A stretch of DNA of 30,248 bases from a virus: the IMG/VR virus record IMGVR_UViG_3300032331_001341, positions 1 to 30,248 of that record; one strand, given 5' to 3'. The notes under the pieces were generated by a model. It made no database searches, had not been told where the DNA came from, and saw only the letters and a list, made by a program, of their open reading frames with translations. Made by a program: the position numbers and the translations under genes. Shown here one piece after another: positions 3,473-19,272 of this stretch. Each line of letters starts with the position of its first letter. The first letter of the stretch is position 1.

Positions 3473-4959
3473 GTTTACTGGAACGCATCAAATCCGTTTT
3501 TCTTCCGAAGCCTAAAGCAAATTATGCCGCAGGATGGGACTCCTACCGTCGTTCACGATTGATCGAAGGTGGAGTCTGGGGGCAACCATTCTGGCAATCT
3601 CATACGCAGAGTTTTGGGAAGGAAGTTTCTGTCGGCGAATGGCGTATCATCGTTTCAGCCGCTCGAAAACTCTACTGGAATGTTGGCGTGGTGAACGCTG
3701 CAATCGACCAGAAGGCGATGCTCACGACCGGAAACGGTGCATTTCGTCCCATCTTCATGGGCGCGGATCGCGAATGGGGCAAGCGGGCCGAAGCTAAGTT
3801 GCTCGACTGGTTCCAGATCGCGTACATGGACGGCTCATCCTGGTGGGATGCTCTGACGTTGGAGAATATCGCCATCGACCGCGATGGGGACTGTCTAACA
3901 GTCCTCAGCCAGAACTCAGCAGGCTATCCGCTGCTTCAACTTGTACCGTGGCACCAAATTGGCACTCGTACCGCATCAGAGGAGCGCGTGCAATCTGGCA
4001 GGTTTGCAGGGGCGAGAATGGAAAACGGCGTGATTCTCAACCGCGCAGGCCGTGCTATTGGATTTCGTCTGATGGGTGAGACTGCCGAAGATGACCGCGA
4101 CATTCCAGCAGGCTCTGCAATGCTTTCCAAGGATCCGCGCGAGATTGGACAGGTGCGCGGGATTTCAGCGTTTGCGCCGGCAATCCTGGACCTACGTGAC
4201 CTTGCAACCCTTGGCGACAATATCAAAGCAGCATCGAAACTCGCGTCCTCGCTGGGTCTCATCGTCGAGAATCAGATGGGGATGCAAGACCCGATGGAGT
4301 CGGCCTTTACGAATGACGCCATGCCTCAGGCAATGGGTGGGGTTCGCCTTGAAACTGTTCAGGGCGGAATGGTGCAATATTTCACGGCCGGTGCTGGTGA
4401 GAAAATCTCCCAGATTGATGCAACGCATCCCACTGAAGCGCAAGATCGCTTGCAGGAACGACTCATCAAAAATGCACTCCTAGGCGCAGGCTGGCCCGCT
4501 GAGTTTTGCTGGAGTCTGGAGAAGATGGGCGGTGCCAATGCTCGGATCATTTTGGAGCAGGTAAACCGCATCACCGCCGACCGGCACCAGTATCTGTCTC
4601 AGCAGTGTAAACGCCGCGTGGCTTATGCCATCGCCAGATTCATCGAGCTCGGCGAACTCCCTGCATACACTGGCGCCGATGCGAACCAGGGTGGCGCCTA
4701 TAATTTCCGATTCACACAGGCACCGCAACTCACGGCGGACAGCTCCTACGCAAACAGCGACGCCATCAACGCGTATCGGGCTGGGATGCGATCCATGACG
4801 GACATCCTTTCGAGTGGCTCGAAAACGCTCGATCAGCACCTCGACGAGGTACAGGCTGAGGAACTTAACATTCGAGCGCGCATGGCCGCTACAGGGCTCG
4901 GGCGCGAGGCGTTTGGACTGCTTACACCCAACGGCAATGTGCCACCTTCTCAGCCATGA
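3469..4959 (+). CDS. portal protein (lambda gpB-type)
   Basis: This 496-residue protein should form the dodecameric ring at the head vertex through which DNA passes and to which terminase and connector bind. Gene order (terL, gpW-like, portal, protease) and sequence pattern match the lambda portal family: an N-terminal SLLERIKSVF segment, WRIIVSAARKLYWN, VNAAIDQKAM, DRDGDCLTV and LPAYTGADAN near the C-terminus. Length is close to lambda gpB (533). ATG 3469 shares ATGA with the preceding stop; a GTG-initiated form from 3460 is less likely because that segment lies inside the upstream gene. The portal end overlaps the protease start by four bases. Confidence 0.92.
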   Translation: MSLLERIKSVFLPKPKANYAAGWDSYRRSRLIEGGVWGQPFWQSHTQSFGKEVSVGEWRIIVSAARKLYWNVGVVNAAIDQKAMLTTGNGAFRPIFMGADREWGKRAEAKLLDWFQIAYMDGSSWWDALTLENIAIDRDGDCLTVLSQNSAGYPLLQLVPWHQIGTRTASEERVQSGRFAGARMENGVILNRAGRAIGFRLMGETAEDDRDIPAGSAMLSKDPREIGQVRGISAFAPAILDLRDLATLGDNIKAASKLASSLGLIVENQMGMQDPMESAFTNDAMPQAMGGVRLETVQGGMVQYFTAGAGEKISQIDATHPTEAQDRLQERLIKNALLGAGWPAEFCWSLEKMGGANARIILEQVNRITADRHQYLSQQCKRRVAYAIARFIELGELPAYTGADANQGGAYNFRFTQAPQLTADSSYANSDAINAYRAGMRSMTDILSSGSKTLDQHLDEVQAEELNIRARMAATGLGREAFGLLTPNGNVPPSQP

Positions 4960-8141: not shown

Positions 8142-8447
8142 ATGCCAGCCACATTTGGAGTTACATCAGATTTCGGATCAACCGCACCGGCAGGATATAT
8201 GCAGTCTGCGGAAGAGACTGTGACCTGCGAAATTGCCACGATTAAAAATGAAATTGGCCGCGTGGTGGAAGCCCAGCAAAAGCCTCGGAGTCTGACTACT
8301 GTGACCATCAAGGGCAAAGGCACTGCAGGACTTACAGCCGTGACCAGTGGGTCGGACTTTAGTGGAATGACAATTGTTTCCTCCAAATACAGCGAGTCGA
8401 ACGACGACTTTGGAACCTCTGAAACCGTTGGAAATCTCTATCAATAA
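8142..8447 (+). CDS. tail-tube-like protein, paralogue A
   Basis: This 101-residue, beta-rich, Ser/Thr/Gly-rich protein sits where the tail tube gene is expected. It is a paralogue of the next gene: both begin TFG[VI]T, both have a V..E segment near residue 25, both carry KGKG (57-60 here, 50-53 there), and both end with a T.(I/V)S strand and a short loop. At 101 residues it is much smaller than lambda gpV (246). Start CGCTTATG, no Shine-Dalgarno. Alternatives are a tail spike collar or minor tail protein. Confidence 0.6.
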   Translation: MPATFGVTSDFGSTAPAGYMQSAEETVTCEIATIKNEIGRVVEAQQKPRSLTTVTIKGKGTAGLTAVTSGSDFSGMTIVSSKYSESNDDFGTSETVGNLYQ

Positions 8448-8450
8448 ACC

Positions 8451-8759
8451 ATGAGCACTTTCGGAATTACAAAGGTACAGGGCCAGCTAATTGAGTCCGT
8501 GGACGTGGAGCACAAGGGCGACACAAAACAGCTCATCAACTATCAGGGCGGGCACGAAGCCGCTCGGAATGTGGATGACTCGTTCACATTTTCGGTGAAG
8601 GGCAAAGGTGACCTTTCAGTAAACGTGGGTGCCATCTCAAGCGGCATTCCAACAGGCGTTTCCGGCGCAGCGTTCGTGACAAAAACGACGATCAGTCAGA
8701 CCAACGAGGACTGGCAGTCATTCACTTACGATGGGGTTGCTTATCCGCACGTGACCTAA
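8451..8759 (+). CDS. tail-tube-like protein, paralogue B
   Basis: This 102-residue protein shares the layout of its upstream neighbour: STFGITKVQG at the N-terminus, then SVDVEHKGDTKQLINYQGG, the strand TFSVKGKG, and the C-terminal part TKTTISQTNEDWQSFTYDG. The two genes are 3 bases apart. A tandem duplication that has diverged is the simplest origin. They could form a two-subunit tube, or one may be the tube and the other a tip or collar protein. Confidence 0.6.
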   Translation: MSTFGITKVQGQLIESVDVEHKGDTKQLINYQGGHEAARNVDDSFTFSVKGKGDLSVNVGAISSGIPTGVSGAAFVTKTTISQTNEDWQSFTYDGVAYPHVT

Positions 8760-8777: not shown

Positions 8778-9224
8778 ATGTTAAAACCTGGGCAAAGAAT
8801 TGACTACGTGCGGGACGATCAGTCCCCAATGAAATCTCCTAACACGGACCTCATCAGCCACTGGCTTTCATGCGGTGGCGAACTCCTAAAAGAAGACCCG
8901 TATTCACAGACTGTTGAGCAGACTGACAACGGGCCTAAGACCGTCACGACGTGGCTTGTCAACGGGGACAAGTCCGTCACGTTCGGTGAAGAGTCCGTCA
9001 ACTTCGAGGAGTTTCGCCGCCGGTGGATGTCGAAGGACTGGTGCATGGCCAACGCCGATCATCACATAGCATATTTACGATCGGCGCGGGACAACGCAGT
9101 GGCGTTGAAAGCATGGATCAAGACCCAGAAACCCAGCGTTCTGATACGTCGCGGAAACCGCGTGGCAGTCATCCACCCAGATCTCCCAGAAGCCCGTAAA
9201 AATCAAATCCTCGCTGAATTATGA
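8778..9224 (+). CDS. hypothetical tail-region protein
   Basis: This 148-residue protein has charged N-terminal sequence, a central EESVNFEEFRRRWMSKDW, then YLRSARDNAVALKAWIKTQK and a basic IRRGNRVAVIHPDLPEARKN stretch near the C-terminus. I recognise no family. It starts TTGAAATATG without a Shine-Dalgarno and overlaps the G-like gene as ATGA, so it belongs to the tail assembly transcript. Confidence 0.7.
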   Translation: MLKPGQRIDYVRDDQSPMKSPNTDLISHWLSCGGELLKEDPYSQTVEQTDNGPKTVTTWLVNGDKSVTFGEESVNFEEFRRRWMSKDWCMANADHHIAYLRSARDNAVALKAWIKTQKPSVLIRRGNRVAVIHPDLPEARKNQILAEL

Positions 9225-9556
9225 TCCGAAAATCTGTTGCTCATCTCAACCTTTACGACTGGACGTTTGTCACGTGGGAGGCCATGTCCGAACTCGGTAT
9301 TCTGGAGCAGAGTCCAGCACGTCAAGCTGTTGCTGCTGCATGGATGCAGTCGCTGGAACCGGAAGAACTTGAAATTCTGGTGGAGAAGAAGGTTGCCAGC
9401 AAAGAGATTGATGCCTTCCGTCGCACGTTCCCGTTGACATCGCTGAACGAGACAATCGCGTGGTTCAACGGGCAGTCGAAGCAGATCATGGACTCGCAGG
9501 TGGACGTGGTGCCGCGACCGAACTCTGGGGACTCTGGTGCGCCGGGAAACTCCTAG
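9221..9556 (+). CDS. tail assembly chaperone, G-like
   Basis: This 111-residue helical protein sits just before the tail component and tape measure genes, the position of lambda G. It starts MIRKSVAHLNLYDWTF and has acidic helices (SLEPEELEILVEKKVASKEI). Its frame ends at TAG 9554-9556, only four bases after the slippery heptamer GGGAAAC, exactly as expected for G in a G/GT pair. G and GT proteins coat the tape measure during tail assembly. Confidence 0.85.
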   Translation: MIRKSVAHLNLYDWTFVTWEAMSELGILEQSPARQAVAAAWMQSLEPEELEILVEKKVASKEIDAFRRTFPLTSLNETIAWFNGQSKQIMDSQVDVVPRPNSGDSGAPGNS

Positions 9557-9786
9557 CGCCAGCGTTCGGGGATCACTTGATCTTCACGCTGGCAAAATCA
9601 ACAGGCTGGTCCGATGAATACCTCCGTCACCGCATTTCGTTCGCTCGCCTTCTCAAACTTTACCACTGCGCTTTGTATGCAGAGGGAGCGTGGACAGTTC
9701 CACGTGGAATCCCAAAGAACCAACAGTTTGAACAACTCCAGGCATTTGCATCGACGTTGACACAGGAGGACGAAGACGATGAGTGA
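9221..9786 (+). CDS. tail assembly chaperone GT fusion made by -1 frameshift
   Basis: The zero frame is read to AAC 9548-9550. A -1 slip then continues from 9550 to TGA 9784-9786, giving 110 plus 78 residues (188). The T part begins LLAPAFGDHLIFTLAKSTGW and ends in the very acidic TQEDEDDE. The T frame has no good start of its own: an ATG at 9460 lies inside G without a ribosome site. Fusion is therefore the natural reading. In lambda a few percent of ribosomes make GT, and its T domain contacts the tail tube subunit. The frame ends 8 bases inside the next gene. Confidence 0.85.
9544..9593 (+). promoter_or_regulatory. programmed -1 ribosomal frameshift element
   Basis: The slippery heptamer G GGA AAC (9544-9550) is in the correct zero-frame phase (CCG GGA AAC). 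After a 7-base spacer comes an 8-bp perfect stem, GCCAGCGT 9558-9565 with ACGCTGGC 9586-9593. Inside it a 2-base bulge and a second stem (9568-9574 with 9579-9585, two G-U pairs) close an ACTT loop. Lambda uses G GGA AAG at the same place. Confidence 0.88.
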
Positions 9787-10486
9787 AGTATATATTGATT
9801 TCATGCGGGCAAACTCCAATTTCACTCGGGCGTTTGACAAGCTCATGGAGTCGTCAAAATCCTCCGTAGAGGAAATGTGGCAGCAACAACTGCGCGGAAT
9901 CGTGCGTAATTTCTTTGCAGTCACCCCGCCGATGGGGGGGAAGAAAGCCTCGGTGAAGCTACCTGCACCTGGCAAACAATCGCGCGGGATCGTAATTGCC
10001 TTTGGCGAAGGAAAACAAGCTGGCTCAAAAGCCATTGAAAGGGATCTTGCGCGTGCATTTAACGTGACTGCAGGCACAAAAGCTCAGGCTGATCTACTCG
10101 CATGGTATCTCTCAAAGCGGAACAAGAAAAAACACTTTCAGGGATTCAAACGCAATGCCAGCGCACCCGACGTTCAACGAGTTCGTCGATGGTTGTTGGA
10201 CAATCAAGGGCTGACAGCGGCGGGATGGATGGAGGCCGTGCAAAAACTAGGCGTCACTGGCATTCCTGCGTGGATTAGACGGCATGCAGGAAAAATAGCG
10301 TCAAAATGCAGTGTCAATGTGACAAGGGACGGGCAGTACGCATTTCAGGCCACGAATGCGACAAACCATTCAGATTCTGGTAATATCGAACGCGAATTGA
10401 TCACCGCAATCAGCATGCAGACAAACAGCATCGAACGGTGGCTTAAAGCTGATGCAGAACGACTCTTAAAGGAGGCACTCCGATGA
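9779..10486 (+). CDS. tail component protein (unassigned)
   Basis: This 235-residue basic protein lies between the chaperone and tape measure genes. It starts MSEVYIDFMRANSNFTRAF, has a Lys-rich middle (KRNKKKHFQGFKR), then GLTAAGWMEAVQKLG and ends with an amphipathic helix (ERWLKADAERLLKEALR). Its size and closing helices resemble minor tail proteins, but the position would be unusual for a gpZ-type protein. It overlaps both neighbours by a few bases. Confidence 0.6.
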   Translation: MSEVYIDFMRANSNFTRAFDKLMESSKSSVEEMWQQQLRGIVRNFFAVTPPMGGKKASVKLPAPGKQSRGIVIAFGEGKQAGSKAIERDLARAFNVTAGTKAQADLLAWYLSKRNKKKHFQGFKRNASAPDVQRVRRWLLDNQGLTAAGWMEAVQKLGVTGIPAWIRRHAGKIASKCSVNVTRDGQYAFQATNATNHSDSGNIERELITAISMQTNSIERWLKADAERLLKEALR

Positions 10487-11643
10487 TTACCGCAGCACTC
10501 GGGCTCGACGTTTCAAATTTCAAAAAGGGCGTACAGGATGCCAAGAGCACACTGAATAATTTTGCAGCGCAGGCTACCGCATTTGGTGGACCGCTTGGAA
10601 ATCTATTTGGAAACATCAGCCAGGGCTTTTCGCTTATCAGCAAAGCCGCCACATCGAGCACCGGTGCTGCGTTGATGGGGATCGGTGCTGCTGCTGCTGC
10701 TACTGGCGTGGCGTGGAATGGGATGATGAATTCCATCCAGAACATCAAGGAACTCAAAATTGCAGCTGAGCAGTCTGGTATTACGACTCGCGAGTTTTTA
10801 GTTCTGAAATCTGTGCTTGGTAGCGTTGGAATTGAGGCAGAAACAATTCCAAACATTATGTCGGCGCTGGCGGCAAAGATCAGCGATGCAGGCAACGCTA
10901 GCTCTCCCGCTGCTGCTGCGCTGGCACGTCTTGGACTTAATGCGCGCGACCTTGGGTCGATGAGTGGCGTGCAGCAACTCCGCGTAATTTCTCAGGCGTT
11001 GCGTGGGGTCCAAAACGATACTGAGCGTCTGGCGTTGGCGCGTGAGATTCTAGGCAAAAAAGGCGCAATGATGCTGCCAGGGTTGACGGACTCGAAGTTT
11101 GGCAAAGCGGAACTACGAACTGGTGACATGGCTGCCTTGATTGAACAGTATGGGAGCGTTTTTCTTGCGTTTGATTCGACAGTCAAAAGCTTAAAAGTAT
11201 CACTTGATCCTTTCTTTGCAGGCATGGCGACGCAGATTATTCCTGCGTTAAATGCGGTGGTCACTGGATTGTCAAATGCATCAGGGTTGATGATTGATGC
11301 AGGAAAAGTAGTTGGAGAAACGGTTCGAAATATTGCTCTTGGCCCAATATTGAGCCCAATTTTTCAATTATTGGGGCTTAAAGAACTTCAAAAATTTCCA
11401 ACACTTCCTGAAACTCAAGTAACAGCAGAAATGTCAGCGTTTCAGGAATCAAAAGCCAAGCCAGCCGTTTCATCCCTTGCCGCGGTGGGTGGCGCATACG
11501 GCGGGCCCGGCACAGTCGTGGTTGATGCTCAGCGCGAAAACAATCGCCTGACGATGGTGACCAACAGTCTCTTACAGCAAATCCTCAACAACGCCACTGG
11601 CAAGGAGCGATCCTTGAATGACAGTGGCATGGTCCTCGGCTAA
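10483..11643 (+). CDS. tape measure protein
   Basis: This 386-residue protein has the composition of a tape measure: Ala/Gly/Leu-rich helices, a hydrophobic segment around residues 55-85 (ALMGIGAAAAATGVAWNGMM), then a domain common near the N-terminus of many tape measures (EQSGITTREFLVLKSVLG, ALAAKISDAG, ALARLGLNARDL, LREILG-like AREILGKKG). It sets tail length; at about 0.15 nm per residue this gives a tail near 58 nm, which is short for a siphovirus. It follows the frameshifted chaperones as the family rule requires. Start ATGA overlaps the preceding stop. Confidence 0.88.
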   Translation: MITAALGLDVSNFKKGVQDAKSTLNNFAAQATAFGGPLGNLFGNISQGFSLISKAATSSTGAALMGIGAAAAATGVAWNGMMNSIQNIKELKIAAEQSGITTREFLVLKSVLGSVGIEAETIPNIMSALAAKISDAGNASSPAAAALARLGLNARDLGSMSGVQQLRVISQALRGVQNDTERLALAREILGKKGAMMLPGLTDSKFGKAELRTGDMAALIEQYGSVFLAFDSTVKSLKVSLDPFFAGMATQIIPALNAVVTGLSNASGLMIDAGKVVGETVRNIALGPILSPIFQLLGLKELQKFPTLPETQVTAEMSAFQESKAKPAVSSLAAVGGAYGGPGTVVVDAQRENNRLTMVTNSLLQQILNNATGKERSLNDSGMVLG

Positions 11644-16048: not shown

Positions 16049-17095
16049 ATGGCATTCCCAATCATCCCCAAATACCGCACTGGATCGACTGGCTATCCGA
16101 CCTCGCTCAATTTGGGGGAGATTGCGGTCAATACCTTCGACGGCAAACTGTACCTTGGGGCTGATTCGGGCGTGGTGCAGTTAGCGGGCACGACGACCGC
16201 GGCGGGCGCTGACATCACCGAGTGGACTGCTAACGGCACTGCGACGGCCTTTGCACCCATCAATGGGTACAATGGCACTGATGCGAAGGGCTATCTCGCC
16301 ACCGTGCAGGGTATTGATCAGCCCTTCACCGTGACCGCTGACAATTCGGGGACAATCGTGTTTTCCTCCGCGCCTCCTGCGGGATCACTGGTGCGCGTGC
16401 GTGCCATCCAGTTGGCAAGCGGTGGAGGTGGAGGTGGTGGAACCACTGCCGATGTGCAGGTTTTTACCGCTGACGGCACGTGGACGAAACCAGCGGGTGC
16501 CAAATCCGTCAACGTCGTTTGCATCGGCGGCGGTCAAAGTGGACAAGCTGGACAAATTGGTGACAATGGTCTGGGGCCAAAATTAGGCGGCAATGGCGGT
16601 GTCGCTGGAGCATATTCAGAGAGGACAATTAACGCGGATGATATTGGGTCAACTGTTGCAGTGACCGTTGGTGCTGGTGGAGCACAGACAAATAATTGGC
16701 CGGATCAAAACAACGGCGGTGACTCAATTTTTGAAAACTTCCTTGTCTCGTCTGGTGGTGGGCAACCACAACGCGGACAATTCTTTTCCACTGCTGGAGT
16801 GGGTGGGAACAACTCAGACGGGGGAGCAGCAACATCAACATTTGCTCCTGGGAGTGGTGGCGGGGGTGGTGCATTTGATTACGATGCAGGGTTTGCGATG
16901 GCAGGTGGTGCAGGTGCATCGTCTGTTTTTGGAAATGGCGGCGCAGGGAGCGAAGGTTTTTTCTATACCGCACGGGGAAGTGATGCAACTGGCTATGGAG
17001 CAGGCGGTGGTGGAGGTGGTGCAACTGCACCAGGAGGAGGAGGAGGAGGCGGCGCAGGCGCGCCCGGCGTGGTGATCGTTACAACCTATTTTTAA
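16049..17095 (+). CDS. tail fibre 2 with glycine-rich adhesin domain
   Basis: This 348-residue protein has the N-terminal module MAFPIIPKYRTG and LNLGEIAVNTFDGKLYLG, as in fibre 1. The middle beta domain is typical of fibres (GYLATVQGIDQPFTVTADN). After a poly-Gly linker comes a C-terminal domain starting DVQVFTADGTWTKPAGAKSV, with many GGxGG runs, ending VVIVTTYF. Fibre 3 has the same C-terminal domain. Glycine-rich domains of this form are known in phage adhesins such as T-even/S16 gp38, where polyglycine helices hold receptor-binding loops. Confidence 0.82.
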   Translation: MAFPIIPKYRTGSTGYPTSLNLGEIAVNTFDGKLYLGADSGVVQLAGTTTAAGADITEWTANGTATAFAPINGYNGTDAKGYLATVQGIDQPFTVTADNSGTIVFSSAPPAGSLVRVRAIQLASGGGGGGGTTADVQVFTADGTWTKPAGAKSVNVVCIGGGQSGQAGQIGDNGLGPKLGGNGGVAGAYSERTINADDIGSTVAVTVGAGGAQTNNWPDQNNGGDSIFENFLVSSGGGQPQRGQFFSTAGVGGNNSDGGAATSTFAPGSGGGGGAFDYDAGFAMAGGAGASSVFGNGGAGSEGFFYTARGSDATGYGAGGGGGGATAPGGGGGGGAGAPGVVIVTTYF

Positions 17096-17100
17096 TTTTT

Positions 17101-19272
17101 ATGGCACTCATTAAACCGACTGGAGCGCACCTCAACGCAGGATCAGACAGCACGCCCGCCGCTCTCGGCACTGCTGCCGCTGGCACGTCCGTCAGCTATT
17201 CCCGCGCGGATCACGTCCACGCCATGCCATCAGCATCCGATGTGGGCGCACTCGGCGCGACAGCGTCCGCTGGCGGGGATCTCTCGGGGAGTTTTCCGAA
17301 TCCAACAGTAGCAAAAATCAACGGGGCTCCCGTGGCCGCTACCGCAGCAACTAATGGGCAGGTGCTGACGTGGTCGAGCACGGCCAACACGTGGCTTCCT
17401 GGCTCAGTGCCGACGGGCGGGTCAGGTGGCGGTGGCGTGACGTTTTTTCTCAACGCAGGGACAGCAGCGCAGAGCCCCACAACCAACCTTCCTGGCACGC
17501 CCAAGGAACTGGGCCGCGTGGCCGAGGTAGCGCAGACATCCATCACGAGCGCGACATTGTCGCAGTCTGGGTACGATTTGGTTTTCGGCGCGGTGAGTGA
17601 CGTGCTAGACCCAGATGTGACCCAGTGGCCTGCTGGATTATTTGATTTCAATCTGTGGGTGTCTTCAAACGCCAATAGCGCCAATCAGACGATTATTCAG
17701 CTCAAGATCTACAAGTATGATGGGGCCAACGCTCCGACGCTACTGGCAACATCGGACGATGTCAGCGTGTATGATCCGACAGTCACGGCGCAGTACATTT
17801 TGAGCGTGGTGATTCCGCAGACGACCGTGACCATCACGGATCGGATCTATATCCAGATATTAGCCAAGGCGACTGCCAACAATCGGACCGTCACGCTGAA
17901 ATTTGGGGACTCCACTCCATCTCACGTTCACACGACAATCCCTTCAGTGGGTGGCTCTGGACTGGTGAAGGTCATTAACGGCGTGATGCAGTCGCCCGCG
18001 TCTCTGCTGGTAAACGCCGACGTGGACGCAGCCGCAGCCATCGCGCAGGCCAAGATCAGCGGACTGACCGCCGCGCTGGCCTCCAAGCTCACGACCTCCG
18101 ACATTCAGGGACTCTCCACGACCGCAGCCGCCAATCTGGCGACCGTTGGCATCGCCGGTGTGAGCACCTACGCAGCGCGGGCAGATCACGCGCACCTGCT
18201 GCCAACACCCGCGCAGATCGGAGCACTGACGACCTCGTCTCTGATCTCGATCTCGCAAGGAGGCACAGGCGCAACCACGCAGATTGCCGCGCTGGCTTCT
18301 CTTGGGGCGCTGAGTTCGGCAGCGATCACGACCGCGCAATCTAACGTGGGCAGCTCGACGCAGATTCCCGTGCTAAGCATCGACGCCAACGGGCGAGTGA
18401 CTGCGCTGAGCAGTGTGACTGCATCAGGTGGTGGCGGTGGCACGCCTGCCGACGTGCAGATATTCACGTCTAGCGGCACTTGGACAAAACCGTCTGGCGC
18501 AAAATCTGTGCATGTCCAGCTCCTTGGAGGCGGGGGTGGCGGTGGCGGAGGCCGCAGAGATCCCTCAGGATCAGGATCAATCGCAAAAGTGGGAGGCGGA
18601 GGAGGAGGAGGCGGTGGTTTTCTGAATATTACGCTTCCAGCAGACGCATTGGCATCTACCGAATCCATTACAATTGGATCAGGTGGAACTGGTGGAACAG
18701 CAGTCTCAGGTGCTACTGGCAACGGTGGAATTGGTGGAGCAGGAGGCAACACGACATTTAATTCTTTGCTGTGCCCTGGTGGAACTGGAGGTGGCTCAGG
18801 TACATCCGTCGCAGCAAGTGGTGGGATTGGAATCTTAAATGCAAACACCGGAGGCAATTCCAGCCCTACTGTTGCAGGCTCTTTTGGCAGCCCCGCTGGG
18901 TCTACATCTACCTTCATGTTTGGAGGCGCAGGAGGAGGTGGGGGCGGTGGAGTTACCGCAGCGGCAGCGGCAACTCAAGGAGGGACGGGTGGACGATCAA
19001 GCGTACTCAATCAATCAGGTGGAGCTTTTGGGACAGTGGGTACAGCAGGCAGTGCCGGCTACACCAACACTGCCGCATCCACTGGGTTGTTTGCAGTGGG
19101 ATCAGGTGGTGGTGGCGGTGGTGGAGGACTAACTGTGTCAGGTGGCAATGGAGGCGCAGGAGGCTTCCCGGCAGGCGGCGGCGGTGGTGGGGGAGGTACT
19201 GAGACTGGCACAACGTCAGGCGCAGGTGGCGTCGGGGGAGCAGGGTTGGCAATTATCACGACCTATTTCTAG
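17101..19272 (+). CDS. large tail fibre 3 with glycine-rich adhesin domain
   Basis: This 723-residue protein is the largest fibre. It carries two similar segments, YSRADHVHAMP..DVGALG (about residue 40) and YAARADHAHLLP..QIGALT (about residue 358), a motif frequent in fibre shafts. A middle beta domain includes DLVFGAVSDVLDPDVTQWP. The glycine-rich C-terminal domain starts with DVQIFTSSGTWTKPSGAKSV (closely matching fibre 2) and ends LAIITTYF. It is probably the main receptor-binding protein. The antisense strand of the Gly-rich part is open but shows only poly-Pro. Confidence 0.85.
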   Translation: MALIKPTGAHLNAGSDSTPAALGTAAAGTSVSYSRADHVHAMPSASDVGALGATASAGGDLSGSFPNPTVAKINGAPVAATAATNGQVLTWSSTANTWLPGSVPTGGSGGGGVTFFLNAGTAAQSPTTNLPGTPKELGRVAEVAQTSITSATLSQSGYDLVFGAVSDVLDPDVTQWPAGLFDFNLWVSSNANSANQTIIQLKIYKYDGANAPTLLATSDDVSVYDPTVTAQYILSVVIPQTTVTITDRIYIQILAKATANNRTVTLKFGDSTPSHVHTTIPSVGGSGLVKVINGVMQSPASLLVNADVDAAAAIAQAKISGLTAALASKLTTSDIQGLSTTAAANLATVGIAGVSTYAARADHAHLLPTPAQIGALTTSSLISISQGGTGATTQIAALASLGALSSAAITTAQSNVGSSTQIPVLSIDANGRVTALSSVTASGGGGGTPADVQIFTSSGTWTKPSGAKSVHVQLLGGGGGGGGGRRDPSGSGSIAKVGGGGGGGGGFLNITLPADALASTESITIGSGGTGGTAVSGATGNGGIGGAGGNTTFNSLLCPGGTGGGSGTSVAASGGIGILNANTGGNSSPTVAGSFGSPAGSTSTFMFGGAGGGGGGGVTAAAAATQGGTGGRSSVLNQSGGAFGTVGTAGSAGYTNTAASTGLFAVGSGGGGGGGGLTVSGGNGGAGGFPAGGGGGGGGTETGTTSGAGGVGGAGLAIITTYF

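Follow-up and report, generated by a model that had tools for sequence, protein, structure and literature searches.

A predicted lambda G/GT-like -1 ribosomal frameshift, with a covarying stem, in a mostly uncultured phage family

Frameshifting of the lambda G/GT type is widely conserved in long-tailed phages (PMC5009743), including gpG/gpGT of lambda itself (Levin 1993; Xu, Hendrix and Duda 2004; as described in PMC5009743). In Caulobacter phages, the chaperone genes that precede the tape measure gene carry AAAAAAC in phiCbK and GGGAAAC in Colossus (PMC3556154), and the G/T frameshifts of the Haloarcula viruses HCTV-1 and HCTV-2 are cited in PMC5009743 as G_GGA_AAC and A_AAA_AAC. For E. coli, the same source reports far less slippage on A_AAA_AAC than on A_AAA_AAG (PMC5009743).

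Here, we analysed a viral DNA stretch of 30,248 nucleotides (IMG/VR record IMGVR_UViG_3300032331_001341, hereafter "the window") and conclude that positions 9544-9593 very probably form a site of programmed -1 ribosomal frameshifting like that of the lambda tail-assembly chaperones G/GT. The features of the locus are as follows.

9221-9556, plus strand: G, the zero-frame open reading frame (ORF), 111 aa, ending at TAG 9554-9556
9544-9550, plus strand: slippery heptamer G_GGA_AAC, in phase, with XXXAAAC at the homologous place in all 32 loci
9550-9786, plus strand: T, the -1 frame extension, 78 aa, with stop TGA at 9784-9786
9551-9557, plus strand: spacer of 7 nt, which holds the G stop TAG 9554-9556
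9558-9565, plus strand: 5' arm of the lower stem, GCCAGCGT
9568-9585, plus strand: upper hairpin, 9568-9574 paired with 9579-9585, loop ACUU at 9575-9578
9586-9593, plus strand: 3' arm of the lower stem, ACGCTGGC
9779-10486, plus strand: ORF of 235 aa between T and the tape measure gene, overlapping the end of T and found at the same place in relatives
10483-11643, plus strand: tape measure protein, 386 aa (phrog_9483, tail length tape measure protein, E 7e-19)

As in lambda gpG/gpGT, a small ORF that precedes the tape measure gene carries a heptamer near its end, and the -1 product would be the minor, long form. The sequence-only reading had described this as lambda's logic realized in an independent sequence with a strong hairpin. 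No sequence similarity to lambda is detectable, and one ORF stands between T and the tape measure gene here. The lambda slippery heptamer is GGGAAAG, which places AAG in the A site, whereas the A-site codon here is AAC; a strong covarying hairpin further distinguishes this locus from lambda. The heptamers and their role are the same as in phiCbK and Colossus, to which the locus was unrelated in sequence in the searches made (no phage record matched GT). They are also those cited for HCTV-1 and HCTV-2, whose hosts are archaeal.

The site can be read directly from the window. The 3' end of the G ORF, whose start codon and the stop of the preceding ORF (8778-9224) overlap as ATGA, reads GCG CCG GGA AAC TCC TAG, and the heptamer is in phase with G (CCG/GGA/AAC, i.e., X_XXY_YYZ), as had been claimed. 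Its distance to the TAG at 9554-9556 is 3 nt rather than the 4 bases given before. The spacer measures 7 nt, in agreement with the earlier count, and beyond it GCCAGCGT and ACGCTGGC form the expected perfect 8-bp lower stem. A second, 7-bp stem closed by a tetraloop is also found, with two G-U pairs and a 2-nt bulge (U9566-C9567) separating it from the lower stem, but this upper part is kept only in the closest relatives (L012, L013 and L008). The fold of 9551-9610 has an energy of -26.1 kcal/mol, compared with -14.3 in shuffles (z = -4.2; 0 of 200 shuffles equally stable). Two sequence features mark a programmed -1 frameshift site, an in-phase X_XXY_YYZ before the zero-frame stop and a predicted stimulatory structure 5-9 nt downstream, and both are present here. 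GGGAAAC by itself is not rare, with three occurrences in the window and 4.2 expected. A scan for the full combination (an ORF of at least 80 codons, ending at most 30 nt from an in-phase XXXYYYZ, with a -1 frame of at least 50 codons past the stop) returned a single site on the plus strand of the window and two on the minus strand. When the codons of G were resampled, an in-phase heptamer near the stop appeared in 2.5% of trials.

According to the proposed mechanism, the majority of ribosomes would read G and terminate at TAG 9554. A minority would pause at the hairpin that starts 7 nt past G_GGA_AAC and slip one base back, with two tRNAs re-pairing on GGG and AAA, and would then continue into T. 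From C9550 the T frame reads LLAPAFGDHL..., giving a -1 product of 110 + 78 = 188 aa, compared with 111 aa without the slip, and a predicted G/T junction of ...APGN/LLAPAF; both the product length and the junction of the sequence-only reading are thereby reproduced. G and GT would serve as tail-assembly chaperones, with G coating the tape measure protein and GT recruiting tube subunits through its T part. We infer the slippage itself and its efficiency from sequence. Since A_AAA_AAC slips much less than A_AAA_AAG in E. coli, the efficiency could be low.

The conservation of the site was assessed in 32 loci with an intact region (29 distinct sequences), which were gathered via a T search, then a major-capsid alignment and then a wider T alignment. 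The T search returned relatives L002-L005 (T identity 58-71%), in which AAAAAAC is directly followed by TAA. A close-relative search using G alone gave no match, none of 50,697 phage records matched GT by tblastn, and tape-measure searches and a first scan of genome contigs yielded no relatives. Relatives lacking the in-phase heptamer had been named as evidence against a frameshift; there are none among the intact loci, since all 32 carry XXXAAAC in phase at the homologous place (GGGAAAC in 18, CCCAAAC in 9 and AAAAAAC in 5). XXXAAAG occurs in 0 of 32, so that XXXAAAC is exclusive, and the stop codon abuts the heptamer in 22 of 32. On a capsid tree of 18 loci, in which only 4 of 14 inner branches have strong support, the X of the heptamer underwent at least three switches among G, A and C, with the three positions staying equal. 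Slipperiness survives such a switch only if all three X positions change together, so the switches strongly indicate that this property itself has been kept. One observation concerns G in L008, where an in-frame TAG at 4235-4237 (GCATGGATGCAGTAGATG) is found where its kin read on, representing either a nonsense change or a sequencing error.

The stem is conserved as well. Relatives lacking the stem had been named as another possible counter-finding. Nearly all 32 loci have a stem about 7 nt past the heptamer; in some loci it is formed via a replaced 3' arm. Specifically, in L015/L018, L065 and L069 the homologous 3' arm is lost and a nearer stretch pairs with the same 5' arm; L077 and L079 are examples of short or interrupted stems. 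For the lower stem, 95.3% of cells were paired in the first 16 distinct sequences (at most 43% in slid versions), and 90.5% in all 29 distinct sequences (22-45% when the partner was slid). Comparing the stem of L002-L005 (GCCAGAGT/ACTCTGGC) with that of the window, one pair is compensatory (C-G versus A-U); L012 likewise shows a compensatory C-G to A-U change. Across the 29 distinct sequences, double-sided compensatory change is seen in 4 of the 8 pairs, which answers the earlier suggestion to look for covariation in related phages. The number of double-change cells was 19, compared with 6.1 in shuffles that ignore relatedness, and 0 of 500 shuffles reached 19.

Since the stem overlaps T codons, it might be supposed that stem and heptamer are by-products of coding (T needs P and TLA) and that the frame break reflects misassembly or a decaying gene. 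We therefore used a null in which T was redrawn with synonymous codons. For the window, pairing at 8 of 8 positions had P 0.014 and the fold had z = -4.2 under this null; 8/8 pairing had P 0.01-0.05 in most members, and P 0.01-0.04 where the range is taken over the members showing it. The pair count is not significantly above the synonymous null in L015/L018 and L023/L024, nor is the fold energy beyond it in L035, as a by-product would predict. However, the rarity of full pairing in most members, the excess of compensatory changes over shuffles and a frame break that recurs at this position across 29 distinct sequences taken from many samples make the coding and artefact explanation highly improbable.

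Even less credible is that T is a separate protein translated from its own start, with the heptamer incidental. In the window, the T frame is open for 44 codons 5' of the heptamer and contains a GTG (9460) at -28 codons, which would permit such a start. Against this, the relatives all lack an ATG, GTG or TTG in the T frame from its upstream stop to the heptamer, several relatives have a T frame open for only 1-6 codons 5' of the heptamer, and the phase of the heptamer is invariant. Because the relatives' T frame has no start codon, independent translation of full T, which the sequence-only reading had named as an outcome that would speak against it, is excluded for the relatives and unlikely in the window, as judged from the reading frames. 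Slippage of RNA polymerase rather than of the ribosome would suit the six-A run of AAAAAAC in five loci, but it is the least probable reading of all because the other 27 of 32 loci use GGGAAAC or CCCAAAC, in which no run exceeds three, and a conserved stem in the mRNA, 7 nt away, is the kind of element that stimulates ribosomes.

In addition to the downstream stem of the preferred ribosomal frameshift, we considered the sequence upstream of the heptamer. L023, L024, L063 and L021 carry strong Shine-Dalgarno-like sequences (GGGAGG, AAGGAG) that resemble the dnaX stimulator and precede the heptamer by about 8-12 nt. The family mean for this element is -5.4 kcal/mol versus -4.2 under the synonymous null, with relatedness ignored and several members without the element. 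For these two reasons we do not claim a dnaX-like Shine-Dalgarno stimulator, for which these sequences are only suggestive.

The surrounding genes are arranged as a tail module in the order tube-like genes, G, T, one ORF, tape measure, with the frameshift site upstream of the tape measure gene and the 235-aa ORF intervening. Two tandem genes upstream of G (8142-8447 and 8451-8759) encode proteins of about 100 aa with similar starts (TFG), are kept in relatives, and are perhaps duplicated tail-tube genes. Tail length usually follows a rule of 0.15 nm per tape measure residue; with a tape measure of only 386 aa, a short tail of about 58 nm (an estimate) is predicted. Elsewhere in the window, 16049-19272 encodes two long proteins whose C-terminal parts are rich in glycine (GGGGG runs) and which are possibly of tail-fibre or adhesin type.

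The identity of the product is less firmly established than the signal. G found no counterpart among the named tail chaperones of Pfam, PHROGs or the PDB, and T matched no named chaperone family in Pfam and PHROGs, where Pfam was scanned with T as a single sequence. An AlphaFold2 model of G (pLDDT 84) consists of a beta hairpin and five helices. A fold search with this model found no significant match in the PDB, and its best viral fold match was an unnamed uncultured Caudovirales protein (E 1.4e-5). The model of T (pLDDT 72, pTM 0.45) was too weak for a fold search. Because G and T match no named chaperone family, we infer the chaperone role of G/GT from synteny, size and frameshift architecture; the missing sequence or fold match is compatible with kinship to named tail chaperones. 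Thus, of the earlier claim that a -1 signal joins tail chaperones G and GT, the signal, its conservation and its position before the tape measure gene hold, and a match to a chaperone family does not accompany them.

The capsid protein of the family is related to that of Verrucomicrobia phage P8625 (58%), and a capsid scan of genomes identified one Verrucomicrobia MAG contig, L053, which ends too soon past the capsid gene to inform on the site. Based on this capsid kinship and contig, the host is probably a member of the Verrucomicrobia. P8625 was considered as a cultured relative that might share the site and was rejected, no in-phase heptamer having been found in its matching part. The gene just before its tape measure gene encodes gp18 (L054, NC_029047, 11917-12537; 206 aa), in which a stretch weakly resembles T (hhalign P 0.04). 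This stretch lies in a single frame and gp18 has no in-phase heptamer, possibly an arrangement free of frameshifting.

The exclusivity of XXXAAAC and the abutting stop are mildly unusual, and common ancestry accounts for part of both. A tentative and rather doubtful explanation is that slippage in this family depends on AAC (asparagine) in the A site, often with the stop adjoining, which could reflect tuning to the host tRNA-Asn or termination-coupled post-translocation slippage, as opposed to the lysine AAAG slip that E. coli favours.

Altogether, this is a new example of the well-known G/GT arrangement, since GGGAAAC and AAAAAAC have already been reported in the same role in phiCbK/Colossus and HCTV-1/-2. 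It extends G/GT frameshifting to a mostly uncultured phage family that is related to P8625 through its capsid, and documents a covarying predicted stimulator stem in 29 distinct sequences. As a consequence, G and T can be annotated as one gene in a group where family models recognise neither, and the exclusive use of XXXAAAC provides a natural data set on slippage of the bacterial ribosome at asparagine codons.
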